Part shown: one piece after another, positions 22,884 through 25,403 of the stretch | Layout: every line of letters begins with the position of its first letter | How positions within the stretch are numbered: position 1 is the stretch's first letter | Assembly (NCBI GenBank): GCA_947624165.1 | Contig: CANQJC010000020.1 | Location: 1-38,702 of the forward strand | Source: an uncultured Clostridia bacterium | GTDB lineage: Bacteria; Bacillota; Clostridia; UBA1381 | DNA: 38,702 nt | Reading direction: 5' to 3' | The notes under the pieces: model-generated | What the model was told of the DNA's origin: nothing | Databases searched by the model: none | What the model saw: the letters and a program-made list of their open reading frames with translations, nothing else | Program-made: the position numbers and the translations under genes

Positions 22884-22910
22884 AAAACGTCGGCTTGCCG
22901 GCGTTTTTTT
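22884..22910 (+). terminator. Intrinsic terminator after galK
   Basis: AAAACGTCGGC (22884-22894) and GCCGGCGTTTT (22897-22907) pair with one wobble around TT, followed by more T residues. The T run ends in the first Spo0A box. Confidence 0.82.
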
Positions 22911-22935
22911 GTCGAAAAATTTTTTTGATTCGACA
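22910..22935 (+). promoter_or_regulatory. Two exact Spo0A boxes upstream of spoIIGA
   Basis: TGTCGAA at 22910-22916 and its reverse complement TTCGACA at 22929-22935 each match the Spo0A box TGNCGAA exactly. A third, imperfect copy TTTGACA (22942-22948) overlaps the -35 element. Known from Bacillus: Spo0A-P activates spoIIG. The binding here is inferred from sequence. Confidence 0.72.
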
Positions 22936-22942
22936 ACTATAT

Positions 22943-22975
22943 TTGACATTTTTCTTACATTTCAAGGAGTATAAT
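22943..22975 (+). promoter_or_regulatory. spoIIG-type promoter with long spacer
   Basis: Consensus TTGACA (22943-22948) and consensus TATAAT (22970-22975) are separated by 21 bases instead of 17. The Bacillus subtilis spoIIG promoter has a similarly over-long 22-base spacer and needs Spo0A-P to be used by sigma-A polymerase. Confidence 0.75.
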
Positions 22976-22995
22976 ACATTTTAGAGGTGAGGACA

Positions 22996-23835
22996 ATGGT
23001 TGTATATGCCGATGTATTATTCCTTGTCAATTTTATATCGTGTTATATCATGATTCAAATCCTTGCCAAAACGGTGTTCGTTGTAAAAATAAGCAAAATA
23101 CGCGCCGCCGCCGCGTCACTTTTGGGCGGTGCGGGCGCGGTGGCAGTATTCTGTATTCCGTTCGGGAAAGCATCGGGAGCCGCCGTTCGTATTTTGTCGG
23201 TATTTTTCATGATTTTTACCGCGTTTTACGAGCAAAGAAAACGATTTTCGGAGCAAATCGTTTATTTCGCGCTTTTGTCGGGCATGACGGTTTTTGCGAT
23301 GATTTTTGTTGCGTCTGCGGCGGTTCGGACGTTAAACGTCACGGTTAAATCAGGTATTTTGTACTTTGATTTACCGCCGAAAATTTTCCTGCCGTCTCTC
23401 GGAGCATCGTATTTTATTATGCTTTTCTTTGTAAAAGCGTTTAAAAACAGGAAAAATAAAAGATACTATATTGTATCGGTGACACATAACGACAGGACAG
23501 TAACCGTAACTGCTTTATTCGACAGCGGAAATCTCCTGCGCGAGCCGTTCACGGGAAAGTATGTAAGCATCATGGAATGGGAAAGCGTAAAAGAGTTTTT
23601 CGGCGCGGATTACGATTATTCGCAGATAGAAAATCATGCCGAGGATATGAAGCTTTGGGCGGTCCCTTTTAATTCTGTCGGGAACCAATCGGGAATAATA
23701 TTCGCGTTCCTCGCCGACAGCCTTTTTATCCGAGAAGAGAAAAAAACAATAAAGAAAGCGATGATAGGGATATGCGGGAACGCGCTTTCAAAGGACGGGA
23801 AATACCGCGCGCTTATCAACGCGGGACTATTATGA
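22996..23835 (+). CDS. spoIIGA: Sporulation sigma-E processing peptidase SpoIIGA
   Basis: SpoIIGA is the membrane aspartic protease that removes the pro-sequence of SigE in the mother cell. The 279-residue protein has about five N-terminal membrane segments (residues 1-150), then a soluble domain with the catalytic Asp176 in [13 protein letters not shown], whose spacing to the following conserved GKYV fits the family. The start at 22996 (ATG behind AGAGGTGAGG) is preferred over a GTG at 22987, which lies within that ribosome site. The gene overlaps the region of the sigE start, and the operon is spoIIGA-sigE. The promoter upstream looks Spo0A-controlled. Confidence 0.93.
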
Positions 23836-23855: not shown

Positions 23856-24569
23856 ATGGAGCTATTGAGGAAAATAAGCAAAAAATTTGTTTTTATCGGA
23901 ACGAATCCATTAAAATGCGACGACGTGTTCTACATAGGCGGCAGCGACACGCTCCCGCCGCCGCTCAACAAGGAGGAGGAAGCGGAGTTGATCGCGAAGC
24001 TTGCCGAAGGGAACACCTCCGTCAAATCAACGCTCATAGAACGGAATTTAAGACTTGTGGTATATATCGCGCGTAAATTTGAAAATACGGGCATATATGT
24101 CGAAGATTTAATTTCAATAGGTTCGATCGGTCTGATAAAAGCGATAAACACCTTCAATCCGGCAAAAAATATTAAGCTTGCCACCTACGCGTCCCGCTGC
24201 ATAGAAAATGAAATATTGATGTATCTCCGTAAAAATTCCAATATGCGCAGCGAGGTCTCGATCGACGAACCTCTTAACGTCGATTGGGATGGAAACGAAC
24301 TGCTTTTATCGGATATTTTGGGTACCGATAACGACGTTATATGTAAAAACATAGAAGAGGAGGTCGACAAAACGCTTCTCGCGGACGCGCTTGAAAAGCT
24401 TTCGGGGCGCGAACAACAGATAATGCGTCTGAGATTCGGTTTGGGCAGCGAAAAGGAAAAGACGCAGAAAGAAGTTGCCGATATGCTCGGAATATCCCAG
24501 TCGTACATATCAAGACTTGAAAAAAGAATAATAGGCAGACTGAAAAAGGAAATCGCTAAAATGTGTTAA
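23856..24569 (+). CDS. sigE: Sporulation sigma factor SigE (pro-form)
   Basis: SigE directs early mother-cell transcription. The sequence is close to Bacillus SigE throughout: [13 protein letters not shown] just after the pro-sequence, [48 protein letters not shown], and a region 4 helix [20 protein letters not shown]. The start at 23856 gives 237 residues and a pro-sequence of about 24, near the 239 and 27 of B. subtilis. An alternative ATG at 23832, forming ATGA with the spoIIGA stop, would add eight residues. GGGAG at 23838-23842 is 13 bases from the chosen start, so the start is not settled. SpoIIGA, encoded upstream, should process it. Confidence 0.94.
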
Positions 24570-24580
24570 AGCTGCCGAGG

Positions 24581-24636
24581 TCATATCTTGTACATAGCCG
24601 CCCTGCGGCGGTTTAATAAGGAGGAATAAGATATGA
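24581..24636 (+). promoter_or_regulatory. Inverted repeat sequestering the sigG start codon
   Basis: TCATATCTT (24581-24589) is the exact reverse complement of AAGATATGA (24628-24636), which contains the sigG ATG (24633-24635). Nested inside is a GC-rich hairpin, GCCGCC/GGCGGT (24597-24602 with 24607-24612), followed by TTTAAT. The AAGGAGG ribosome site lies in the remaining loop. Folding would hold the start codon in a stem. Confidence 0.62.
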
Positions 24637-25403
24637 CAAACAAAGTGGAAATATGCGGGGTAAACACGTCTAAGCTTCCCGTTCTTTCGCGTGAGGAGAA
24701 GGACGAATTATTCATAAAAATAAAGGCGGGCGACATGAAGGCGCGCGAGACGTTCGTTAAGGGCAATCTCAGGCTTGTGCTGAGCGTGATACAGCGTTTT
24801 AACAACAGAGGTGAAAACGCGGACGATTTGTTTCAGGTCGGCTGTATTGGACTTATCAAGGCGATAGACAATTTTGACCTGAGCCAGAACGTTCAGTTTT
24901 CAACTTACGCCGTACCGATGATTATCGGCGAAATAAGGCGGTATCTGCGCGACAATAACTCAATACGAGTAAGCCGTTCGCTCAAGGATATAGCATATAA
25001 AGCAATGCACATAAAGGAAAAACTCATCAGTGCAAATTCAAAGGAACCTACCATTTCCGAGATAGCGAGGGAGCTTAATCTCCCGAAGGAGGACGTCGTT
25101 TTCGCGCTTGATGCAATCGCCGAGCCGGTTTCCCTGTTTGAGCCGATCTATCACGACGGCGGCGAAGCGATTTTTGTGATGGATCAGGTCAAGGACACAA
25201 AAAACGTAGATGAAAATTGGCTTGAAAGCATAGCTTTAAGCGAAGCGATGAAGCATCTTGACGAAAGGGAAAAGCATATATTAAATCTGCGCTTTTTTCA
25301 GAGCCGCACGCAAATGGAGGTGGCTGAGGAAATCGGTATTTCGCAGGCTCAGGTGTCGAGATTGGAAAAGAGTGCATTGAAACAGCTCAGAAAATATATC
25401 TGA
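24633..25403 (+). CDS. sigG: Sporulation sigma factor SigG
   Basis: SigG directs late forespore transcription. The 256-residue protein begins with NKVEICGVNTSKLPVL, the hallmark N-terminus of SigG (also the anti-sigma SpoIIAB contact region), then NLRLVLSVIQRFNNRGE, DDLFQVGCIGLIKAIDNFD, STYAVPMIIGEIRRYLRD, and the region 4 ending QMEVAEEIGISQAQVSRLEK. The order spoIIGA-sigE-sigG is conserved in many spore formers. It is probably reached by read-through from spoIIGA-sigE as well as by a forespore promoter that I could not place. The leader can fold over the start codon. Confidence 0.96.
   Translation: MTNKVEICGVNTSKLPVLSREEKDELFIKIKAGDMKARETFVKGNLRLVLSVIQRFNNRGENADDLFQVGCIGLIKAIDNFDLSQNVQFSTYAVPMIIGEIRRYLRDNNSIRVSRSLKDIAYKAMHIKEKLISANSKEPTISEIARELNLPKEDVVFALDAIAEPVSLFEPIYHDGGEAIFVMDQVKDTKNVDENWLESIALSEAMKHLDEREKHILNLRFFQSRTQMEVAEEIGISQAQVSRLEKSALKQLRKYI

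Follow-up and report, generated by a model that had tools for sequence, protein, structure and literature searches.

The analyzed window is a 38,702-nt stretch of contig CANQJC010000020.1 (assembly GCA_947624165.1) from an uncultured gut-type spore-former (Clostridia, UBA1381). On its plus strand it encodes spoIIGA (22987..23835), sigE (23856..24569) and sigG (24633..25403), with a gap of 63 nt between sigE and sigG. The SigG product matches TIGR02850 with 474.3 bits, above the cut-off of 457, and SigE matches NF006158 with an E-value of 9.3e-124 (the sigE start was chosen in the present analysis). SpoIIGA is divergent: its match to TIGR02854 is nearly full-length, yet the score of 133.8 bits (E-value 7.9e-39) lies under the curated cut-off of 209.55.

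Two heptamers read from the sequence upstream of spoIIGA, TGTCGAA at 22910..22916 of the plus strand and TTCGACA at 22929..22935 (a minus-strand site, thus in the opposite orientation), are taken here to be 0A boxes. They precede a sigma-A type promoter (22943..22975, plus strand) with TTGACA at 22943-22948, a 21-nt spacer and TATAAT at 22970-22975. This arrangement of opposed 0A boxes and a long spacer (22910-22975) resembles the unusual PspoIIG promoter of B. subtilis.

In the sigE-sigG gap, TCATATCTT (24581-24589) is exactly complementary to AAGATATGA (24628-24636), the latter holding the sigG ATG (24633-24635). The original prediction had described this inverted repeat, with a GC-rich hairpin nested inside and a ribosome site in the loop, and all of these elements are recovered by folding. 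The repeat lengthens to a 12-pair stem, further referred to as the lock, formed by the 5' arm (24580..24591, plus strand) and the 3' arm (24626..24637, plus strand). The inner hairpin (24596..24613, plus strand; 24596-24602 paired with 24607-24613) is nested within the lock, starts at a UACAUA box and has no T-tract, and the Shine-Dalgarno (SD) sequence AAGGAGG (24618..24624, plus strand) lies in the loop. The predicted energy of the 58-nt element is -22.8 kcal/mol, compared to -10.5 +/- 2.5 for 200 dinucleotide shuffles (z -4.95, 0/200). For 24570-24660, the stretch with flanks that the original prediction proposed to fold, z is only -2.07 and 6 of 200 shuffles are as good. Rfam covariance models gave no matches up to an E-value of 1 within 24300-24900.

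In the ensemble of predicted structures for the window, the AUG has an unpaired probability of 0.00 and the SD sequence one of 0.88; the stem is predicted to close the start codon and not to sequester the SD. Relatives show the SD region (positions -14 to -7) with a mean unpaired probability of 0.59 across 37 leaders, defined below as linked.

At E<=1e-100, SigG was detected in 60 of the 70 family genomes, and 58 leaders were used, those of G029 (contig edge) and G064 (13 nt of leader) being left out. Leaders separated from sigE by no more than 110 nt are called linked; these number 37, and the other 21 are unlinked. The comparison of sigE-sigG gaps proposed in the original prediction reveals compensating changes, the two arms co-varying in the linked leaders rather than changing independently. 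The own arms of these 37 leaders pair with -14.6 kcal/mol versus -8.2 (sd 2.8) for 3' regions swapped across genera. When the arms of the 25 linked leaders that differ in their 3' regions are re-paired at random, the real mean pairing is attained in 0 of 20,000 permutations, and for a single leader per genus (8 genera), which is the sole correction for relatedness, the fraction of permutations reaching the real pairing is 0.0001.

The paired letters vary by genus. The arms are GUCAUAUCUU/AAGAUAUGAC in genus g1, AUGCUGUUU/AAACAGCAU in g2, GGUCGUACCC/GGGUAUGACC in g4 and GGUUAUACC/GGUAUGACC in g8, and several different paired forms occur in g9. In genome G007 (GCUAUAUCUUU/AAAGAUAUGGC) the second codon encodes Ala, not Thr, and the 5' arm is changed to match. 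Inside the genus alone the co-variation is modest, with 98.7% of cells paired, two pairs showing two-sided change, and 15 of 500 shuffles equally high. In the unlinked leaders the fraction of foreign regions pairing as well as the own one is 0.286, versus 0.036 in the linked leaders; an arm at p<=0.05 is seen in 6 of 21, and the UACAUA box is retained in 19 of 21. Some unlinked cases are clear, such as UUUAUCACAUA/UAUGUGAUAAA about a GUG start in g11.

Closure of the start codon distinguishes linked sigG leaders from those of other genes. An unpaired probability of less than 0.3 is predicted for this codon in 32 of the 37 linked leaders, compared to 9 of 21 other sigG leaders, 4 of 16 spoIIR leaders and 2 of 28 SASP leaders (L244 and L255 were dropped from 30 SASP loci), and the means are about 0.12 for linked sigG, 0.49 for spoIIR and 0.56 for SASP. 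Pairing across the start codon is conserved with compensatory change, as expected of a lock sequestering it. The element is probably a cis-acting RNA lock that gates sigG translation, and the lock would act by repressing translation.

Elsewhere in genome G000, 30 of the 37 matches to TACATA followed by AGGAG were examined, and seven stand before a start codon. The strongest arm of these seven is that of sigG (-15.1), the next one (-11.3) being located before a 46-aa ORF. As a genome-wide signal the combination was rejected, since 37 matches compared to 50 in the reversed control show no enrichment. At one locus (L265, G000 contig 4), with a SpoIVA-like start by eye, TACATA lies about 20 nt before the ribosome site and the arm is weak (-4.8).

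The original prediction stated that in B. subtilis a sigG leader hairpin lowers translation, which PMC5942855 supports, and suggested that the same control exists in this lineage. The likeness holds in that there is a leader stem before sigG hindering initiation, here predicted from sequence, and that the lineage has a locking stem of its own with compensating changes; the control is not the same. The B. subtilis hairpin forms five pairs over the SD and ribosome-binding site (PMC5942855), whereas the lock places 12 pairs across the AUG and leaves the SD open. The sequences in the window differ as well, and the loop adds the UACAUA box and the inner hairpin. Another, large hairpin of B. subtilis blocks sigG translation from spoIIG read-through mRNA, and the lock would likewise silence sigG in sigE-derived transcripts; in that hairpin, however, the 5' arm precedes the point where sigG transcription begins, and the sigG transcript itself lacks it (PMC5942855).

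The position of the arm relative to promoters was analyzed using a sigma-F-type score, based on a hand-built consensus of same-genus spoIIR promoters and known elements. In other Firmicutes, 72 of 80 loci gave a sigG start, and removal of three family members left 69 leaders. The same-genus spoIIR promoters score 10.2-16.9 in 16 of 16 cases. A score of at least 8 within about 120 nt is reached in 53 of the 69 leaders from other Firmicutes and in 9 of 21 unlinked leaders, compared to 2 of 37 linked ones; in a slightly wider stretch three of 37 linked leaders reach 9, and the linked mean of 5.9 is close to the shuffled value of 5.1. No sigma-F-type promoter above shuffles was found in the 318 nt upstream of sigG in the window, the best score being 4.9 versus a shuffled mean of 6.8.

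Among the 69 leaders of other Firmicutes, 27 could be scored for promoter and significant arm together, and in 27 of 27 the end of the arm is upstream of the transcription start, the arm lying inside or upstream of the sigma-F promoter. This is partly a matter of geometry, as the distance from those promoters to the start codon is just about 45 nt. With the arm so placed, only read-through RNA would be locked there. The read-through lock known in B. subtilis therefore looks widespread in Firmicutes across these loci (L083-L159). Both linked leaders that score at least 8 likewise have the arm upstream of the promoter start; in unlinked family members with a promoter, the arm is downstream of the start in four of four scoreable cases, unlike the large B. 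subtilis hairpin. Neither is a transcription start of the B. subtilis kind found in the window, so that an arm upstream of a sigma-F or sigma-G promoter start is not seen there. Since a sigma-F-type promoter is present in just two of 37 linked leaders, we infer that most sigG RNA in linked family members would be locked.

One could suppose that a forespore promoter between the arm and the AUG has escaped detection and that the box is part of it, which would make the element a read-through lock of the B. subtilis type. The placement of the arm in the 27 scoreable Firmicutes and in both linked leaders scoring at least 8 agrees with this, as does the promoter that has been mapped upstream of sigG for C. 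difficile (PMC3789822). Still, the best score in the window is below the shuffled mean and far from the range of same-genus spoIIR promoters, and the argument from 27 of 27 is weakened by the short distance to the start codon. Moreover, in genera g11 and g15, 8 of 11 leaders score at least 9 farther upstream of the box and keep the box 6-12 nt before the SD region; were it a -10 element, the RNA would start at the SD. The box was thus rejected as a promoter element, and a hidden promoter appears improbable. A promoter within the sigE tail was rejected too: the codons of a -10-like stretch are not unusually fixed, CTT-GAA just upstream being nearly fixed, and no consistently scoring site was found across the genus in 1.3 kb. 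For C. acetobutylicum, a sigma-F promoter between sigE and sigG was predicted to be missing, with which Northern data disagree (PMC2530871).

The UACAUA box in the loop of the lock (24591..24596, plus strand) is the exact hexamer targeted by B. subtilis EndoA/MazF; the original prediction had made no mention of it. It is present in 16 of 16 genus members, where no other run from the arm to the SD is invariant (a single A, at 24615, is invariant as well), and in 56 of 58 family leaders, compared to 4.9% of shuffled leaders. The boxless leaders, G056 and G047, have weak locks (fractions of foreign regions pairing better 1.00 and 0.25, respectively). No UACAUA was found in the 69 leaders of other Firmicutes; in sister families, inspected by eye, the box is present in three of three leaders of one and in none of ten readable leaders of two others, an eleventh being cut by the contig end. 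In the linked leaders the mean unpaired probability of the box is 0.69; in the window it is 0.54 and the box is partly paired, with 0.04 for the first U. A second site beyond the arm is observed in 18 of 37 linked leaders (all TACATA by eye), and the window has one box.

None of the 58 sigG coding regions contains the hexamer, against an expectation of 12.3 +/- 2.8 occurrences (0/300 synonymous shuffles are as low). This depletion is not clean, since in the same regions GACATA (12 vs. 25.9 expected) and TACATG (0 vs. 3.0) are also low, and in other Firmicutes TACATA is somewhat scarce in sigG too (7 vs. 13.5 in 70 coding regions). There is no clear depletion in sigE (17 vs. 20.7 expected in 40 genes), and in the window its coding region carries two copies (23931..23936 and 24504..24509, plus strand). 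TACATA occurs 10 times vs. 4.5 expected in a SigG paralogue (13 loci, one of 14 being left out) and four times vs. 3.4 in eight other genes of the window, sigE among them.

Broader roles of the box were considered and rejected. As to a general signal, 16 genus genomes contain 114 matches to GTACATARCCG, and among the 50 examined (48 distinct; two, L166 and L176, are sigG) 49, all except L166, lie in open frames of at least 120 codons, the frames being unvetted as genes. As to spoIIR leaders being fellow targets, TACATA is present in 10 of 31, its positions shift, and at least three of 31 starts look miscalled.

Separately, in SASP leaders of the genus (L245-L257, by eye) most of those of one gene carry a TTTACATAAA-type sequence pairing with TTTATGTAAA at the SD, and thus the hexamer lies within a stem beside the ribosome site of another forespore gene. 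The other SASP gene (L228-L243, by eye) has a GTCGATACAATTCGAC-like palindrome at the expected -10 region.

The inner hairpin follows the box closely: by eye, of the 42 leaders with a fold between box and SD, 41 have its first pair at a distance of 0-1 nt from the end of the box. As the MAFFT alignment of this hairpin was out of structural register, no pair counts were drawn from it. The original prediction had offered, as another option, that the nested hairpin trims read-through from sigE, which would make it a terminator or attenuator. A GC-rich hairpin followed by TTTAAT in the window suits this idea; however, a T-rich tail is present in only two of 42 family leaders, the window not among them, which makes the hairpin unlike a terminator, and the terminator scan called nothing at the hairpin or elsewhere in the sigE-sigG gap. 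The window lacks the T-run of an intrinsic terminator, and we consider this option highly improbable.

PF02452, the family of EndoA, is found in 63 of 70 family genomes, representing 17 of 17 genera. The protein of this genome (G000) is identical to B. subtilis EndoA in 75 of 107 positions (70%), an enzyme of the matching type. Its gene is downstream of alr (TIGR00492) and of a 63-aa ORF. The latter (L192:1375-1563), in the position of the antitoxin, is only 63 aa long and has a weak match to MazE (E-value 0.0021, below the cut-off).

By end-sequencing, B. subtilis EndoA cuts U/ACAU only before A (PMC11780869), and TACAT is followed by A in 56 of 56 boxed leaders. The target U/ACAUA is the same hexamer as here, predicted to be partly unpaired, in a host encoding EndoA. 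In B. subtilis, cuts at U/ACAUA were observed when exonucleases were deficient but not in the wild type, and EndoA is discussed as an enzyme that may initiate mRNA decay (PMC11780869); the site here falls between the lock and the SD, where cutting could activate instead. In E. coli, leaderless mRNAs made by MazF likewise result from a cut in the 5' leader that alters translation (PMC6562991), whereas here the SD would remain and the pairing arm would go. Sporulation of an ndoA mutant of B. subtilis is reduced 10-40 fold in spore number (PMC3163665). The mazEF genes of C. difficile depend on the mother-cell factor sigma-E (PMC3789822), which would place the enzyme in the wrong compartment, on the wrong side of the septum, for making SigG. 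The physiological role of EndoA/MazF was called unknown in a 2019 review (PMC6562991), and among the top-ranked entries of searches in an open-access library (most subscription journals being outside its scope) none linked EndoA/MazF to sigG or to an unlocked leader.

The predicted effect of a cut was estimated by folding the leaders from the cut site. For the 37 linked leaders the mean unpaired probability of the start codon increases from 0.11 to 0.54, reaching approximately the level of spoIIR and SASP leaders, and 23 of 37 rise by more than 0.4; for 19 unlinked leaders it increases from 0.52 to 0.65, with 7 of 19 rising by more than 0.4. The predicted cost of opening the region from the SD to +13 decreases from 12.0 to 4.8 kcal/mol in linked leaders, from 11.2 to 4.9 in unlinked ones and from 11.5 to 1.8 in the window. 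Truncation at -43 lowers the opening cost by 7.0 for linked sigG, compared to 0.3 for spoIIR, 2.0 for SASP and 4.2 for sigG of other Firmicutes, in which the arm sits in the promoter.

Comparison of sequences thus shows a stem, the co-variation of its arms, a near absence of recognizable sigma-F-type promoters from the gap and a conserved UACAUA box between arm and SD. Early in sporulation, Spo0A-driven transcription from the spoIIGA promoter would run through spoIIGA, sigE and sigG. In the read-through RNA, and in some relatives also in RNA from a forespore promoter, the 5' arm would pair with the start-codon region. SigE would be made while sigG stays shut, with the SD exposed and the AUG closed, and hence SigG would hardly be made from the early mRNA. 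Later the arm would be removed or melted.

One way of opening would be translational coupling, in which ribosomes finishing sigE disturb the 5' arm and sigG starts, SigG being tied to SigE synthesis. The arm in the window begins 10 nt past the sigE stop, and the first paired base is 5-15 nt past the stop in 29 of 37 linked leaders (in four the arm overlaps the end of sigE), so that a terminating ribosome could reach it. The downstream edge of such a ribosome is, however, at about 9-10 nt, and the arm is mostly at or past it. Moreover, leaders distant from sigE retain the box and, in part, the arm, and under coupling SigG would come early, opposite to its known timing. We find this mode of opening improbable.

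Of the candidate keys, EndoA has the most support; that a cut occurs, when, and in which compartment, we infer. It is conceivable, and we propose it tentatively, that EndoA opens the lock by cutting at U/ACAUA, which would take off the 5' arm. The cut mRNA would start beside the inner hairpin, retain the SD and have a free AUG. The inner hairpin would then sit near the new 5' end, and in Bacillus a hairpin near the 5' end can protect RNA against RNase J. In other Firmicutes the arm is lost because transcription starts downstream of it, and this family may lose it through a cut in the RNA. In its full form, which we also advance with reserve, the proposal is that the toxin-antitoxin RNase EndoA serves as a developmental key: the cut in the loop would switch sigG on, replacing a private sigma-F promoter, and the same enzyme would cut sigE mRNA twice and spare the sigG coding region.

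Another possibility is that the lock is never opened and constitutively damps SigG at all times, the UACAUA box being kept for an RNA-binding protein, a small RNA or the like. The lock is conserved across the family, and damping by 2-4 fold has a precedent in B. subtilis (PMC5942855). In addition, eight of the 56 boxed leaders have weak locks (at least 30% of foreign regions pair equally well), and hence the box may have a role of its own. On the other hand, opening here would cost about 12 kcal/mol compared to 6.2 for the hairpin of B. subtilis, and strengthening the latter almost abolishes translation (PMC5942855), so that very little SigG would be expected from an unopened lock this strong. 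Constant damping would also leave two coincidences, the exact match of the box to the EndoA hexamer and the lack of this hexamer in the sigG coding region. We regard it as rather unlikely.

Leader hairpins of sigG are known; what is new here is the start-codon form with an open SD, in a family mostly without a recognizable private promoter. How SigG synthesis is timed in the forespore has long been a question. The conserved EndoA hexamer, at a site where a single cut would release the sigG start codon, bears both on that timing and on the role of EndoA. Should EndoA play no part, a start-codon lock maintained across several genera through compensatory change would still represent a different gating of sigG when a private promoter is absent.
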